The position numbers were made by a program, and so were the translations under genes. DNA of 22,076 bases from a virus. Of the stretch, positions 1,619 through 21,197 are shown piece by piece. The stretch lies in the IMG/VR virus record IMGVR_UViG_3300044640_003132, positions 1-22,076 of that record. One strand, given 5' to 3'. The notes under the pieces were generated by a model. That model saw only the letters and a list, made by a program, of their open reading frames with translations, was not told where the DNA came from and ran no database searches. Position 1 is the first letter of the stretch. Each line of letters starts with the position of its first letter.

Positions 1619-1816
1619 TTACTCTTCTTCGGTAGAGACGCGCAGGGGCATTGTGACAAACCAGACAATAGTCAAGATAGCAAGGGTTGCTCCCACAAAG
1701 TTCCTTGTATCTCCGTCGGGCAGTACGATCCAACCTACAAGAAGTCCAAATACTGTCCAAGATTGTCCAACTATGTCGTTAATTGCTTGAGTAAGGATGC
1801 TCTTCCACTTGCTCAC
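1619..1816 (-). CDS. Small membrane protein, holin-like candidate
   Basis: 65 residues. Two hydrophobic stretches (about residues 18-32, [15 protein letters not shown], and 40-58, [19 protein letters not shown]) are separated by a short polar loop with Pro-Asp-Gly-Asp, and the tail is acidic (STEEE). The start codon overlaps the stop of the large exported protein gene as ATGA, so translation is probably coupled. Position after the XhlA-like and exported protein genes, with two membrane segments, fits a holin or a lysis accessory protein. The family is not recognised, and another small membrane role is possible. Confidence 0.6.
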
Positions 1817-3393
1817 TTCAGGTTTCTCCTCTGCCCACCTTTGATGGGCTTGCTATCTTGCGCCTTGGCCGGCGATGGCTTTGCTACGTTTCGTGCCGAT
1901 GGCTTTCCGCGCCCGCCTCCTGGGCGCTTCTTTGGACCTTCACCGCTGCCGCTAAACCCGCCGCCACCACCACCGCCACCGGATCTCATGGCAGCAGCAG
2001 ATACAGCAGCCTGAGCAATGGTGGTCATGATGACCGCTGGCCCAACAACCGTTCGCGCCTCTTCGCGCTCTTCCTCGGTAATCTCGTTACCAAGATTGGC
2101 AACAGTCGCAACGGCAGCGCCAACAGTTTCAGAAACGGCCGCGGCTACTTCGCCAACGGCCTCAGACACGGCGGCAGCAGCCTCGCCGATTGCCTCGGTT
2201 ACGGCTTCTACGGCAGCGCCCGGATCAATTGGTCCAGGTGCGTCAGTAGGTACAGGGCTGGGATCAACAGAAGGGGCAGGAGACTCCGTAGGGGCTTCTG
2301 TTGGCTCGGGCGACGGCTCGGGTGTGGCAGTCGGGTCCGGTGTCGGCTCATAGGTCACCTCTGGGCTTGGCGACGGCGTCGGAGTTGGTTCCGGCGTAGG
2401 CGTCGGGGTTGGCTCTATAGAAGGCTCTGGCGTAGGGCTAGGAGCCACGCTAGGGCTTGGCGTTGGCGGTTCTGGTGTCGGTGTGGGTGTTGGCTCTGGG
2501 GTGGGCTCTGGGGTTGGCGTTGGGCTTGGGGTTGGCGGAATAGGCGCAAAGAGGACTACTGAAACGGGTACTGACTCCCCTGAATACACTGCAAGGGTGT
2601 TGTTGTCAGCTCGGATTGTGAAGGCGTATTCCACGTCTGGGCCACCGGTGGCCGAGAAGACCTGCCACGGCAGCGTGATGGACGTCTCGTCGGAGCCCAC
2701 ACCCCACCCAGATTCCCCAACGCGCCAGGTGATGGCGTAGCGCTCAACAGGCGTACCGCTATCTAGTGGCGCATCCCACGTAAGGTTGACATCGCCGTTG
2801 CTGTACACCGTAACCATGAGGCCAGTTGGCGCGTTTAGGTATGGATCGGGTACTGGGGTAGGAGTTGGCTCTGGCGTTGGAGTTGGAGTTGGTTCCGGGG
2901 TTGGTGTTGGGGTTGGCGGTGGCGTTGGTGTCCATGTTGCAGATGGGGTTCCTGGCGCAAGCTCGGCTGCAAAGTTGCTGATTAGGTAGTAGTGGTTTCC
3001 ATAGAAGCGATCTGCCGCTGGGTCGCCGCAGCACACCCCAGCGCGCACGCGGTAATCACCAGCGGGCAGTGAAATGCGGATTGTTGAGGCCAGGGAATAG
3101 CCACCAGTATGCTCGGTCCAAGAGTCGTCATTAGCCGCAAGTAGTGTTCCCTGACCGTCATAAAGCCAGAGCATGGAGTCAACGGTTCCTGGGCACCATC
3201 CAGCGGTGGTGTCGTCGCAGAGATCGGTCCAAAGGTGGAGCTCGCCCTGCTCTGGAAGGGTGATCCAGAAGTCTTGCGTTCGATCAACGTAAAGATTCTG
3301 AGAGCCCTGGGTTGGTGAGGCAATAATTCCATAGGCCAAGGTAGAAATAATTAGCCAAACACTAGCAAGGATTACTGCAATTCTTGTATTCAT
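1813..3393 (-). CDS. Exported Pro-Thr-rich protein with FN3 domain and Gly-rich basic tail
   Basis: 526 residues. A signal peptide or membrane anchor spans about residues 5-25. Residues 33-145 resemble a pre-peptidase-type beta-sandwich ([16 protein letters not shown], then [13 protein letters not shown]). A first Pro-Thr linker spans about 150-185, a fibronectin type III-like domain about 187-280 (NLTWDAP, RYAITWR, YAFTIRA), and a second Pro-Thr-Glu-Ser linker about 285-390. An alanine-rich helical repeat follows ([19 protein letters not shown]-like, 394-432), then a hydrophobic segment (448-468), eight or nine consecutive Gly, and a basic tail. It overlaps both neighbours as ATGA. This is a cell-surface-type architecture inside the lysis cassette. 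Function unknown; host-envelope adhesion or lysis support are guesses. Confidence 0.85.
2265..2545. repeat. Low-complexity Pro-Thr coding minisatellite, long block
   Basis: GT-rich on the plus strand, made of short degenerate units such as GGCGTTGG and GGCTCTGG. It encodes the second Pro-Thr-Glu linker of the exported protein on the minus strand. A shorter block of the same kind lies at about 2840-2935 and encodes the first linker. The repetitive DNA could change length by slippage or recombination. Confidence 0.75.
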
Positions 3394-12134: not shown

Positions 12135-12815
12135 TTACGCGGGGATATCCTTCCCCTCAACAAGCCAGAGGAAGAACCCCGTTGCGGTGCCCTTCTTCTC
12201 AACGTATCTGCGATACGCCATGACCAAGGGTTCGGCTTCCTCTCTTGCAAGACGAAGCTCGATACCGCCAATCTTCACCATCATTGCCATGTTTGGGTCA
12301 AGTGGCGGAGCGGTTCTTTGGGCGATGCTGCCATCAAGCCCGTCAACAAATTCTGTTCTCATTGCATTCGGGTCTGACATCTGTGGGATTTGCGGGATGC
12401 TTCCGTTTTGCGCATCACCAGAAAAATCCAAATTTGGCTCGTCTTCGGAGTAGCCAGTTGCCAGAAACAAGTCCTGCTCTTGGATGCTATTGATCAACTC
12501 TTCGAGCAAGTCCTCATCGTAAAACCCAAGGTCCTGCGTCCGATTGTCAGCAAGGGCAAATGCGGTCGCGGTCTGGTCGTCATCCTGCACCCAAACAACA
12601 GCAATCTGCTTCCAGCCAAGTTGCTGGGCAGCCTGAAGTGTGTGGTTGCCGGCGATTACCTCGTTAGTGCTTTTGCGCACAACAATTGGTCGTCGCTGAC
12701 CAAACTTTGCAAGCGAGCGCGCAATTGCCTCAACGTTTCCTCGGCGCGGATTCTTCCCCCACGGCTTTAGCCCCTCAATAGGTGTCGCGAGTGGAATAAG
12801 GTCGTCAATAATCAC
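12135..12815 (-). CDS. ParB-like (ParB/Srx fold) DNA-binding protein
   Basis: 226 residues. The ParB N-terminal domain fills about residues 8-105: KPWGKNPRRGNVEAIARSLA (17-36), GQRRPIVVRKS (39-49), the GNHTLQAAQQLG box (56-67) and ALADNRTQDLGFYD (87-100). The C-terminal half is unlike ParB and ends in a helical EEAEPLVMAYRRYVEKKG segment. Phages use this fold as nucleases, CTP-dependent clamps or regulators. No ParA is present in the window. ATG 12815 overlaps the upstream HTH gene as ATGA, so the two are coupled. The palindromic array at 13432-13647 lies upstream of this operon. Confidence 0.85.
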   Translation of the reverse strand: MIIDDLIPLATPIEGLKPWGKNPRRGNVEAIARSLAKFGQRRPIVVRKSTNEVIAGNHTLQAAQQLGWKQIAVVWVQDDDQTATAFALADNRTQDLGFYDEDLLEELINSIQEQDLFLATGYSEDEPNLDFSGDAQNGSIPQIPQMSDPNAMRTEFVDGLDGSIAQRTAPPLDPNMAMMVKIGGIELRLAREEAEPLVMAYRRYVEKKGTATGFFLWLVEGKDIPA

Positions 12816-13180
12816 TTTGAAACTCCAGTCTCTTCTGCAACAGTTTTTCTTAATGCGCGAAGCGTTTCTGCTGAAGATTCAAACGCATTCGTAATTTCTT
12901 CAATGGACTTCAAAAGGTTTTCCCTACTGGCAGAAACCTTGACTACGGTTGACTGCTGGCTTGCCTCAACCTCAGAGAATTCCATCAAAATTCTCTTAGC
13001 GATTTTAGACTTTCCAGGAACGCCCTTGTGAGCATATGTTCTCATTGTCTCTGGCGTCACGCCGTAGTCTGCGGCCAACGCACGGCAAGCACCAGAAATG
13101 CTTGCCACCCCAATTGGGGATCGATGCATTAACACTTGCTGAACAATAATCTGGTCAACAACTCCTTGTTTTGAGTTCAT
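12812..13180 (-). CDS. HTH DNA-binding protein with coiled-coil tail
   Basis: 122 residues from ATG 13180, chosen for the GGAGG just upstream. Residues about 26-55 read as a helix-turn-helix (ISGACRALAADYGVTPETMR, then TYAHKGVP). The C-terminal half is a long helix with heptad character (SRENLLKSIEEITNAFESSA, then ETLRALRKTVAEE), likely for dimerisation. It precedes and overlaps the ParB-like gene (ATGA). Together they look like a DNA-binding pair next to the palindromic array. Regulatory or partition role inferred. Confidence 0.7.
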   Translation of the reverse strand: MNSKQGVVDQIIVQQVLMHRSPIGVASISGACRALAADYGVTPETMRTYAHKGVPGKSKIAKRILMEFSEVEASQQSTVVKVSASRENLLKSIEEITNAFESSAETLRALRKTVAEETGVSK

Positions 13181-13253
13181 TCTTCCTCCACTTTTTGCAG
13201 GAATAATCACCTGCCTGTGGATAGCCTACAGCATTGGCGCCCGTCGTGCAAAC

Positions 13254-13412
13254 TCAATAATAATCCGAGCACGACGCGTAGTAGCCACACTCGCAGATAA
13301 GTTTACATTTTCTTTCTTCCATCTTTTTGCCGCAATTTGCACAAGTTAGTACAATGTCCTCAGCCGATGAATCTGTCTTCTGTGTGTCTGGGCTTGACAA
13401 GTCAATTTCCAC
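13254..13412 (-). CDS. Small zinc-ribbon protein
   Basis: 52 residues from GTG 13412, with AGAGAGG nine bases upstream. Cys24, Cys27 (LTCANCGKKM) and Cys40, Cys42 (LICECGYYASC) form a compact zinc ribbon, with further Cys36 and Cys48. It is the first gene of the leftward operon (13412 to about 12135) and its 5' leader holds part of the palindromic array. Function unknown; a transcription-factor-like or RNA-binding role is possible. Confidence 0.65.
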   Translation of the reverse strand: MEIDLSSPDTQKTDSSAEDIVLTCANCGKKMEERKCKLICECGYYASCSDYY

Positions 13413-13513
13413 GTGTACAATCCTCTCTATTGTTCTCAGGGAACAGGAACCATATGGTTCTTAGGTATAACGGTACTTAGGTATTAGGTACTCTTAGAAA
13501 TACCTTGATCTTC

Positions 13514-13581
13514 CGGGTACAGCTATCCCTCTAGTTCCTTCGGTACTACGTACCTCAGGAACTCTCGGGATACTGTACCCG
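13514..13581. repeat. Nested hairpin A of the palindromic array
   Basis: Arms pair in three tiers separated by 3-base internal loops. The outer arm 13514-13529 pairs with 13567-13581 (15 pairs, one bulged base). The middle arm AGTTCC (13533-13538) pairs with GGAACT (13558-13563). The inner arm GGTAC (13542-13546) pairs with GTACC (13550-13554) around a TAC loop. Spacers facing each other are TCT/CTC and TTC/TCA. Total 26 pairs. Confidence 0.92.
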
Positions 13582-13647
13582 ATTACTACGGTATCTTAAG
13601 AACATTCGGTATTTCATACCTCATGTTCTTAAGATACCTTCGTAATC
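13581..13647. repeat. Nested hairpin B of the palindromic array
   Basis: The same plan as hairpin A with different sequence. The outer arm GATTAC (13581-13586) pairs with GTAATC (13642-13647). The middle arm 13590-13604 pairs perfectly over 15 bases with 13624-13638. The inner arm GGTAT (13608-13612) pairs with ATACC (13616-13620) around a TTC loop. Spacers are TAC/TTC and TTC/TCA. Total 26 pairs, equal to hairpin A. Confidence 0.93.
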
Positions 13648-13682
13648 CTATTTCCCCCTTTATCCCTACCCTTTTTCCCCCG
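13648..13682. other. Pyrimidine-rich tract next to the palindromic array
   Basis: An almost pure C/T stretch on the plus strand with three runs of C up to five long, between hairpin B and the promoter region. Strand-asymmetric tracts of this kind occur at unwinding or primer sites, but nothing here proves that. Confidence 0.5.
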
Positions 13683-13721
13683 TTGACGCATTTTGAGTAA
13701 GGACTTACTTTGATAGCCTGC

Positions 13722-13791: not shown

Positions 13792-14142
13792 ATGAAAACA
13801 GAGCAGGTCTCAATTCTTGAGGCAGCGCAGATCCTTGGAGTTTCCTACTCGGCGGCAGTGCAGGCTGCGCGACGATATGGCTGGACAAAGATTAGCGCCG
13901 GTCAAGGACCAAACGGCGGACGTCCGAGGATTATGTATCTTCGACCAGAAGTGGAAGCATACGGAAGTAATCGCAACCGACAAACGTTTAAGTCAAAAAA
14001 GGTTGACGAGAACCTTTTGCGAGAAGTAGAAAAAGCGGCAAGAAATAAAAAGCCGATCGGTCGCATTGCAAAAGAGTTGGGCGTAAGTCACTTCCTAATT
14101 GGCAGCGCCGCATACGAATTGGTTAGCAAGAGCAAGCGATAA
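13792..14142 (+). CDS. Double-HTH regulator candidate
   Basis: 116 residues from ATG 13792, preceded by AAGGAG with a short gap; an in-frame ATG at 13768 is possible but has a poor ribosome site. The N-terminal domain (residues 5-55) looks like an AlpA/MerR-type winged helix (SILEAAQILGVSYSAAVQAA, then PRIMYLRPEVEAYG). The C-terminal part has a second HTH (PIGRIAKELGVSHFLIGSAA, about 86-105). It is the first gene right of the palindromic array and strong promoter, so it may bind that array and control both operons. That link is inference. Confidence 0.75.
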   Translation: MKTEQVSILEAAQILGVSYSAAVQAARRYGWTKISAGQGPNGGRPRIMYLRPEVEAYGSNRNRQTFKSKKVDENLLREVEKAARNKKPIGRIAKELGVSHFLIGSAAYELVSKSKR

Positions 14143-14147
14143 TCTTC

Positions 14148-14223
14148 GCCGCCGTAGCTCAGTGGATAGAGCGACTGCCTTCTAAGCAGTTGGCCGCAGG
14201 TTCGATTCCTGTCGGCGGCGCCA
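14148..14223 (+). tRNA. tRNA-Arg (UCU), CCA encoded
   Basis: A complete 76-base cloverleaf. Acceptor GCCGCCG pairs with CGGCGGC. The D arm is GCTC...GAGC. Anticodon stem ACTGC/GCAGT holds loop CTTCTAA with anticodon TCT (14181-14183). The T stem closes around TTCGATT. Discriminator G and CCA (14221-14223) are encoded. It reads AGA/AGG codons, which are common in this window's genes, and sits five bases after the HTH gene stop. Confidence 0.95.
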
Positions 14224-17443: not shown

Positions 17444-18171
17444 AACTTTTGATTAAGTTCCCAACAAGGCAGCGCCCTGAGCTCTTCTTCAAGACGCTGG
17501 AGAAGTACATTGCTATGGCCTCCGGCAGGCATGAGATTGAGATTATTGTTTCCATGGACAGCGACGATAAACTCATGAATAACGAGGTGGTCAGGGAGAA
17601 GTTTGAGCGAATTAAGGCAAATGGCAATGACCTTAAGTATTTTTACGGAAACTCTTCCACTAAGGTTGAGGCGATCAACGCGGACATGGATAAGGCAAGC
17701 AGCGACTGGGACATGGTCTTCAACGGGCAGGACGATATGATCCCGCTCTCGTTTGGATACGACGACATGATGCTTTCTCGACTTGTAGAGCACTACCCAG
17801 ACACCGACGGCGCACTCTGGCTTGATGATCACGCTATGGGAGGGACCAACAACTGCACTATCGTTGCCGCTGGAAGAAAATATTATGAGCGCTTTAATTA
17901 CATCTACTACCCAGGGTACAAGTCTTTGTTTGCGGACAACGAATACACCGAAGTTGGAGAGGGCCTTGGAAGGTTAACCTACATCGCGGACGATATTGTC
18001 AAGCACGAATGGATTGGCACCAACGAGTTTCGAGACCCACTCTTGGAGAGAAATGAGCAGCCATGGCTGTACACCTATGACAAGATGGTATTCGAGCGAA
18101 GAAAAAATCTTGGCTTCCCAAACGACGGAGGTGAAGTTTGGAAATCACACAAGAACGACCAGCAACCCTAA
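17440..18171 (+). CDS. Second GT2-like glycosyltransferase
   Basis: 243 residues, ATG overlapping the previous stop (ATGA). The start MKLLIKFPTRQRPELFFKTL is GT2-like, followed by EIIVSMDSDDKLMNNEVV (34-51), a KVEAINADMDKASSDW segment (75-90) and FNGQDDMIPLSFGYDDMML (94-112) with a QDD in the place of DxD. Further on are ALWLDDHAM and FADNEYTEVGEGLG. It probably transfers the epimerised sugar. Its end overlaps the following ParB-like gene by 34 bases. Confidence 0.75.
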   Translation: MKLLIKFPTRQRPELFFKTLEKYIAMASGRHEIEIIVSMDSDDKLMNNEVVREKFERIKANGNDLKYFYGNSSTKVEAINADMDKASSDWDMVFNGQDDMIPLSFGYDDMMLSRLVEHYPDTDGALWLDDHAMGGTNNCTIVAAGRKYYERFNYIYYPGYKSLFADNEYTEVGEGLGRLTYIADDIVKHEWIGTNEFRDPLLERNEQPWLYTYDKMVFERRKNLGFPNDGGEVWKSHKNDQQP

Positions 18172-18656
18172 AGCCTCATCCAGACAATCCCCGCTCTGGA
18201 GACGTTGGGGCAATCGTCGATTCTATTAAGAAAAACGGTTGGCACGGCGTGGTTGTCTGCCAAAAGTCCACCCGAAGAATCCTGGTAGGAAACCATCGCG
18301 TTAGGGCTGCGTTGATTCTTGACCTCAAAGAGATTCCGGTGCAGTGGGCTGACGTTGACGATCAGCGCGCACGAGCCATCCTTCTTGCGGATAACCGCGC
18401 CTCTGACCTTGGCGGGTACGACGACGAAATCCTTGCGCGAGTCGTGTATGAGTCTGCGGTTGACGGGCTTCTTGACTCAACAGGCTACGACCTAGAGGAT
18501 ATGGATCGGTTAGTGCGGCAGGCGATGGAGCCAGCGCCAATGGACCTAGATGAGAAGAAGACCGAGTGCCCAATGTGCGGGCACAGGTTTTACGCTATCG
18601 CCTCTGGCGGCAGGCGGTCCAGGCGACCTTCCCATCCTGGCGGGTCAAAGTCCTGA
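18138..18656 (+). CDS. Second ParB-like protein with C-terminal Cys motif
   Basis: 172 residues from TTG 18138, fixed by GGAGG six bases upstream. The ParB domain fills the N-terminal 110 residues: LKPHPDNPRSGDVGAIVDSI (11-30), GVVVCQKSTRRILVGNHRVR (37-56), ILLADNRASDLGGYDDEIL (81-99). The end has a TECPMCGHRFYA knuckle and a basic tail. It is shorter than the protein at 12135-12815 but shares the G-N-H box and LADNR motif, so the two are related in fold. Placement after the glycosyltransferases is odd. Overlaps a convergent gene by 67 bases. Confidence 0.82.
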   Translation: MEITQERPATLKPHPDNPRSGDVGAIVDSIKKNGWHGVVVCQKSTRRILVGNHRVRAALILDLKEIPVQWADVDDQRARAILLADNRASDLGGYDDEILARVVYESAVDGLLDSTGYDLEDMDRLVRQAMEPAPMDLDEKKTECPMCGHRFYAIASGGRRSRRPSHPGGSKS

Positions 18657-20234: not shown

Positions 20235-20450
20235 ATGGGACGCAAACGAGTAGCAGTTTCAAACGACGAGCAAGGCACCTACCGAGTAGGGAAGCAGTTG
20301 ATCGGCACTGGTCGTCCATGGACACTAGAGGAGATCGCAGCAGAGTTCCGTATCTCTCGTGAACGTGTGCGGCAGATTGAACAGCGAGCACTCAAGAAGC
20401 TCAAGCACCCAGCACGTGCGTGGCTTATTCGTGATTTCTTGGGAGAGTGA
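20235..20450 (+). CDS. Stand-alone sigma-70 region 4 protein
   Basis: 71 residues, ATG 20235 with AAGGAGAGGAG upstream. Residues 29-69 match sigma-70 region 4 of primary sigma factors: WTLEEIAAEFRISRERVRQI (29-48) and EQRALKKLKHPARAWLIRDF (49-68), including the HTH that reads the -35 box and the R-x-RQIE-x-(R/K)AL-x-KL-x-HP signature. Regions 1-3 are absent; the first 28 residues are a basic extension. It may bind core polymerase or the -35 element and redirect host transcription, or block host sigma region 4. A remnant of a longer sigma is less likely given its own ribosome site. Confidence 0.88.
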   Translation: MGRKRVAVSNDEQGTYRVGKQLIGTGRPWTLEEIAAEFRISRERVRQIEQRALKKLKHPARAWLIRDFLGE

Positions 20451-20924: not shown

Positions 20925-21122
20925 ATGACGCAATCAGACCAAAAGATAGGGATGTGCAACTACTGCCAAGAGCTGGGCCCTATCTACGAGCAGGAAGACG
21001 ACTCCAGGGTTATTTTTCTCATCTGTAAGCGCTGTATCACGGATGTCATCAAGCGGTTAGAGATTGATCAAAAACTAAAAAGGTTGCGCGCCCGTAAGGA
21101 ATGGGATCGGTACGACACCTAG
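20925..21122 (+). CDS. Small zinc-ribbon protein
   Basis: 65 residues from ATG 20925, chosen for GGGAG upstream. Cys11, Cys14 (MCNYCQELGP) and Cys34, Cys37 (FLICKRCITD) make a zinc ribbon, followed by a basic helix (EIDQKLKRLRARKEWDRYDT). The final G of the stop codon is the first base of the tRNA-Ile gene, so processing of the tRNA cuts at the gene's end. Function unknown; nucleic acid binding plausible. Confidence 0.7.
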   Translation: MTQSDQKIGMCNYCQELGPIYEQEDDSRVIFLICKRCITDVIKRLEIDQKLKRLRARKEWDRYDT

Positions 21123-21197
21123 GGGGTGTAGCTCAGTGGTTAGAGCAGTGAGCTTATATCTCACCGGCCCTTGGTTCAATTCCAAGCACCCCCACCA
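21122..21197 (+). tRNA. tRNA-Ile (UAU), CCA encoded
   Basis: A full 76-base cloverleaf. Acceptor GGGGGTG pairs with CACCCCC. The D arm is GCTC...GAGC. Anticodon stem GTGAG/CTCAC has loop CTTATAT with anticodon TAT (21155-21157). T stem CTTGG/CCAAG holds TTCAATT. Discriminator A and CCA follow. It would read AUA directly. Most bacteria read AUA with a lysidine-modified CAU tRNA, so this is an unusual specificity. Confidence 0.92.

Follow-up and report, generated by a model that had tools for sequence, protein, structure and literature searches.

The putRNA of HK022, a nascent RNA antiterminator, consists of two adjoining stem-loops with non-canonical pairs, located downstream of early phage promoters (PMC9378689). 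The N4 promoter hairpin, which serves the virion RNA polymerase, has a short stem and a 3-base loop (PMC4496689). Finally, on the side of DNA-binding proteins, BldC binds 9-bp direct repeats that are arranged head to tail (PMC5859096). The array analysed here, which consists of short repeated words and two adjoining hairpins, A and B, shares features with each of these systems and differs from each. Set beside put by description, it likewise has two adjoining stem-loops after an early-type promoter, on the plus strand as read from a promoter termed P1. However, put is ~70 nt long and found at both early promoters, whereas the double hairpin of the array spans ~134 nt and occurs once per genome. 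Moreover, put acts on the strand transcribed from its promoter, whereas the strand evidence for the array points away from the P1 transcript. Hairpins of the N4 type resemble it in their short stem and 3-base loop, which is GNA-like on one strand in several array members (PMC4496689), but the loop of hairpin A is not GNA in two groups of relatives (L027 and L017). As in BldC/Xis arrays, closely phased repeats lie beside the gene of a protein with a winged helix-turn-helix (HTH) fold, here HTH116, but the words of the array alternate in orientation, sit in covarying hairpins and have a step of ~8 bp rather than the 9 bp of BldC. The likeness to Rfam 15 families is restricted to weak scores of generic hairpin models: no model scored at any gathering threshold, and the sub-threshold scores came from models of the microRNA-precursor type. 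Array DNA had no match in GenBank phages, and relatives of HTH116 were found neither there nor in bacterial genomes. The statement of the first-pass annotation that no named family has this plan therefore holds for Rfam, GenBank phages and bacterial genomes, and the array is a narrow family of structured elements, not described before, of a known general kind.

The locus and its relatives

The window, meaning the whole stretch of DNA analysed, is a 22,076-nt fragment of the IMG/VR phage record IMGVR_UViG_3300044640_003132 (positions 1 to 22,076). The array lies in an intergenic region of ~380 bp between a leftward unit (zinc ribbon, HTH132, ParB_N) and the rightward gene for HTH116, and the double hairpin sits at the single divergence point of genes in these uncultured freshwater bacterial viruses. 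The first gene of the leftward unit (13254-13412, minus strand) has a GTG start, its Shine-Dalgarno sequence overlaps the -10 region of P1, and it encodes a 52-aa zinc-ribbon protein with the motif CxNCG..CKLxCxCGYYASCSDY. Relatives of this protein occur in 71 viral contigs, mostly in other gene contexts, and its PHROG match is marginal (phrog_672, E 0.006). It is followed by HTH132 (12812-13180, minus strand), a small HTH-like protein with 39-46% identity to its counterparts in other groups, and by a protein assigned to ParB_N by domain match (12135-12815, minus strand). HTH116 (13792-14142, plus strand) is predicted to have an N-terminal BldC/Xis-like winged HTH and a C-terminal helical HTH. 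Gene annotation of the flanks thus bears out that HTH and ParB-like genes bracket the array, as had been proposed, but two features had been overlooked, the zinc-ribbon gene and a conserved promoter (13394-13421). Elsewhere in the window, a second ParB_N protein is encoded on the opposite side of the array (18138-18656, plus strand), and the two are ~42-44% identical over 107 residues. The window also contains genes for tRNA-Arg(TCT) (14148-14223, plus strand) and tRNA-Ile(TAT) (21122-21197, plus strand), a 71-aa protein that is hardly more than a sigma-70 region 4 domain (20235-20450, plus strand) and a 526-aa protein with long PTPTPE-type repeats (1813-3393, minus strand).

Searches for relatives by ParB, HTH116 and the double apex, along the lines that had been suggested, converge on 12 other IMG/VR contigs with the whole array. 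They form five sequence groups with the array at the same genomic place in each; in a sixth group (L150) it is cut by the contig end. Three relatives of ~82.8, 85.1 and 84.6 kb are probably complete since their ends overlap. These relatives encode a portal, a maturation protease, a head-tail adaptor and a tape measure of ~3,500 aa, which indicates that the array phages are long-tailed. In their genomes the array marks the junction of a rightward block of ~20 kb and a mainly leftward remainder, and each full genome searched contains a single copy. More distant ParB relatives (L158-L176) lack the array. Nor is it present upstream of the zinc-ribbon gene where this occurs in 58 other viral contigs, and thus the gene is not generally controlled by the hairpins. 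In a single-apex scan of viral contigs all 69 new matches were without flanking stems and were rejected as chance; a double-apex scan of bacterial genomes gave six matches, which lie in repetitive sequence and lack the hairpins. A separate feature was seen ~20-28 kb to the right of the array in two genomes (G001 and G003; L042, L055/L056), where about a dozen small leftward genes stand in a run. Each of them is preceded by a unit of ~230 bp with the pieces CGGCGCTCCGCGCC, ACCTAAATGAATC, GGCATTCTCT and CCGTATAGT, and the units resemble a copied terminator-promoter-leader cassette.

Two covarying hairpins with a fixed core

Hairpin A (13514-13581) and hairpin B (13581-13647), both assigned to the minus strand, are defined by their fold, by covariation and by recurrence in relatives. 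The coordinates given by the first-pass annotation are correct, and each hairpin taken singly has the 26 standard pairs it had counted, but since G13581 is common to A and B the two cannot have 26 pairs simultaneously. The 15-bp tier of hairpin A contains a bulged C (13523). The array folds much better than expected by chance: against shuffled sequences the plus strand has z = -9.2 and the minus strand z = -10.9, and no shuffle out of 200 equals it.

Covariation was analysed in an alignment of nine sequences with 53 pairs, corresponding to 477 pair cells, and also after reduction to one sequence per group. Standard pairing is found in 99.2% of the cells, and 17 of the 53 pairs show compensatory double changes, which shows selection on the foldback pairing. 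The number of pairs with compensatory change stays at 17 with one sequence per group, and RNAalifold reports 18. Double-change cells number 44, compared to 13.8 +/- 2.9 in shuffles, and when partners are slid by 1-3 columns just 1-3 pairs have double changes; these controls preserve either column make-up or relatedness, never both, and sampling by five groups is modest, yet the difference is large. The earlier suggestion that the arms covary under selection on structure is thus confirmed.

The fixed core, read on the minus strand, consists of two apexes of the form 5'-UGAGGUAY-NNN-RUACCGAA-3', which are 66 nt apart in every array contig. Each hairpin is ~26-27 bp long and contains an internal loop, UGA/GAA, that does not vary, together with a 5-bp stem capped by a 3-nt loop. 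In the window the inner motif of A is UGAGGUAC-GUA-GUACCGAA (13539-13557, minus strand), with the loops GUA, AUA and UGU among relatives, and that of B is UGAGGUAU-GAA-AUACCGAA (13605-13623, minus strand), all 19 bases of which are invariant in ten sequences. The UGA/GAA loops themselves are identical in both hairpins of all ten sequences and consist of a U-A pair and 5'-GA-3'/3'-AG-5', arranged as in tandem sheared G.A pairs. The claim that the 3-base spacers stay unpaired therefore applies to the inner spacers. The outer ones vary or pair, with full pairing in the L017 group for both hairpins and in the L028 group for A, and for this reason the plan with swapped tiers (15/6/5 versus 6/15/5) describes the group of the window but not the family.

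Words of the GGWAY/RTWCC type are enriched around this core, as had been noticed, and steps of 8 bases are common, but 17 words were counted and not about 25: seven in the part to the left of the hairpins and ten within them, compared to 1.2 and 2.2 in dinucleotide shuffles, none of 500 of which reached such counts. Within the hairpins the enrichment, at ~8-bp steps, is found in every group. The left part (13428-13513), which is rich in words and contains short palindromes and imperfect 8-bp repeats, is conserved across groups neither in its words (none in L026, two in L027) nor in its fold, and the minus-strand segment from hairpin A to the zinc-ribbon gene has no conserved fold among relatives. 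To the right, the pyrimidine tract and the promoter that had been reported to follow the hairpins are both present. The tract (13650-13684) is a pyrimidine run on the plus strand and a quadruplex-type tract of four G-runs on the minus strand; it is near-identical in three groups, changed yet G-run rich in L027 and absent in the L006/L017 group.

Promoters and the folded strand

P1 (13394-13421, plus strand) is a sigma70-type promoter, TTGACA-16-TACAAT, that agrees with the consensus at 11 of 12 positions and reads into the array, with a start expected near 13428. It is kept in all five groups and has the form TTGACT-16-TACAAT in L150, so that TTGAC and TACAAT are invariant across six groups. 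By hand count, 11 of the 12 hexamer positions are invariant, compared to two of the 16 spacer positions (Fisher p 5e-5). P1 overlaps the start of the zinc-ribbon gene, and its position is fixed while that start codon shifts among relatives. Judged from this pattern, P1 appears to be under selection, and the array is very probably transcribed rightward from it. P1 is the only conserved promoter beside the array that reads through it. P3 (13722-13751, plus strand; TTGACA-18-TATAGT) would serve HTH116; relatives keep its -35 element, and its -10 element only as TAnnnT. In four relatives nearly all consensus promoters belong to the plus strand, where they sit at the array and within the early block. 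A conserved sigma70-like leftward promoter was not found to the right of the array, nor did a search of leftward intergenic regions reveal a promoter or motif by the array. Further left, TTGCAC-17-TAGGCT (13223-13251, minus strand), after the zinc-ribbon gene, is a candidate promoter for HTH132/ParB, of which relatives have the form TTGCAN-17-TAnnCT with a spacing that by eye is alike in most of them. If so, the zinc-ribbon gene may be a separate unit.

The eight non-Watson-Crick cells of the alignment are four G.U and four G.A when read on the minus strand, with no A.C, while on the plus strand the changes in the arms are A.C and Y.Y mismatches; the G.U signal stems from about three independent changes. 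In all ten sequences the RNA of the minus strand exceeds that of the plus strand in stability, by 5.6-13.6 kcal/mol, and DNA parameters favour the minus strand too, with a smaller gap (1.6-4.6), although energies and mismatch counts are not independent of each other. A polymorphism at 13597 has no cost for the minus RNA and costs the plus RNA 4 kcal/mol. On these grounds the minus strand seems to be favoured as the folded strand, with the plus strand kept as the alternative. Thus, the fold is apparently tuned on one strand and the conserved promoter P1 lies on the other.

Alternative readings and their meaning

The array is most likely a regulatory RNA, and of the four roles that had been proposed for it a structured RNA fits best, given the compensatory changes in the arms. 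Specifically, we propose a structured nucleic-acid element whose working form is the folded minus strand, in the simplest case as leader RNA of the leftward zinc-ribbon unit, to which we assign a probability of roughly 45%. Past the array, the minus strand has a start codon with a Shine-Dalgarno sequence. The leftward transcript would fold into two coaxially stackable rods, the two like apexes of which may be read by a phage or host protein, and this could control translation, stability or elongation of the transcript. Folded single-stranded DNA of the minus strand would give the same pattern.

It is possible, if less probable, that the plus strand is the functional RNA, with P1 producing an early RNA of ~220 nt that begins at the edge of the array and carries both hairpins, either as a free non-coding RNA or in a putRNA-like manner, in which the nascent element would alter host RNA polymerase for the rightward early block of ~20 kb. 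P1 is near-consensus and persists in every group whatever the position of the gene start that it overlaps, nearly all consensus promoters of the relatives have the same orientation, and in HK022 putRNA, too, a pair of adjoining stem-loops follows early promoters (PMC9378689). However, the arm changes produce mismatches on this strand, HTH116 downstream has its own promoter and the array transcript would have roughly three times the length of put. Moreover, hairpin B is AT-rich and has four U in the next eight bases of the plus strand, so that the plus RNA has no clear end. Hairpin B was not called as an intrinsic terminator with a GC-rich stem and T run; the true-looking terminators of the relatives are GC-rich, unlike B.

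We consider it unlikely that the array acts as DNA, either because HTH116 and/or HTH132 bind the phased GGWAY words or because negative supercoiling extrudes the hairpins and one folded strand is recognised. AlphaFold2 models of HTH116 (six sequences) have a mean pLDDT of 79.5 and a pTM of 0.47 and show a winged HTH followed by a helical HTH. Foldseek matches them to the DNA-binding domains of BldC, mycobacteriophage Pukovnik Xis and RacA with probabilities of 0.93-1.0 but E values of 0.04-0.2, which makes the likeness a fold-level hint; a sequence search against the PDB returned nothing significant. HTH116 and the array occur together in 12 of 12 related contigs, and HTH116 is found solely in array-bearing contigs, but co-occurrence is confounded with descent. 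Since BldC binds direct repeats (PMC5859096), the operator role suggested earlier stays alive, perhaps alongside a role of the RNA, and it accords with the word enrichment in the hairpins of every group. Extrusion would accord with the C-GTA-G apex of hairpin A, which resembles the extruding N4 promoter hairpin (PMC4496689), but not with the groups in which this loop departs from GNA. Operators do not need the compensatory changes in both arms of 17 pairs, which this role leaves unexplained; moreover, the left part is word-poor in L026 and L027, and the dyad has no repeat elsewhere in G001. An N4-type hairpin promoter loses further support as the ~3,500-aa protein matches a tail tape measure and no RNA polymerase was found, a result in which the PF00940 search, silent in its own controls too, has little weight.

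A replication origin, in which phage DNA synthesis would begin through joint action of the hairpins, the G-run tract and P1, is very unlikely. The GC-skew check that had been suggested does give a local cumulative minimum at the right end of the array, 300-355 bp right of P1 and just beyond the hairpins, in four of four relatives (for G004, which is linear, the minimum after detrending). However, third-position skew lacks a replication-type asymmetry on either side: on the coding strand it is -0.018 for right plus genes, -0.061 for left minus genes and -0.003 for left plus genes, values in which some small opposite-strand ORFs may be false genes. The genes for an initiator-like protein (phrog_3926) and a DnaC-like loader lie ~33 kb from the array, no clear iterons were found near the initiator gene and one group lacks the G-run tract. 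We therefore regard the switch in skew as following from gene orientation, and the origin proposed earlier loses support. Paired changes can arise without selection when templates are switched within quasi-palindromes; a functionless palindrome kept perfect in this way is nevertheless extremely improbable, since the inner mismatches have been kept and not erased and one sequence is common to both apexes. An assembly artefact is refuted by the array in twelve further contigs from separate samples. For a partition site there is no evidence, the flanking ParB_N proteins being of a kind common in phages. An attP with Xis arm sites was rejected as well: tyrosine and serine integrases or resolvases (PF00589, PF00239) are absent in six records, with positive controls.

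Returning to the leader RNA on the minus strand, opposite-sense transcription from P1 could oppose it by antisense pairing or collision, and the two RNAs might contribute to a switch that selects the rightward early or the leftward block. The full form of this idea, in which the minus leader and the P1 transcript compete as a sense/antisense switch through two coaxially stacked hairpins with duplicated UGA/GAA apexes without a classical repressor, is decidedly speculative; if true, it would set the choice between the rightward early and the leftward programme. Few cases would compare with an RNA-based switch or with a polymerase controller made of RNA alone, and an operator or hairpin promoter would still explain the ordering of the phage gene programme. 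The element has clear evolutionary evidence of folding and stands outside every RNA family library tested, and a promoter conserved on one strand with a fold seemingly tuned on the other makes it a testable puzzle.
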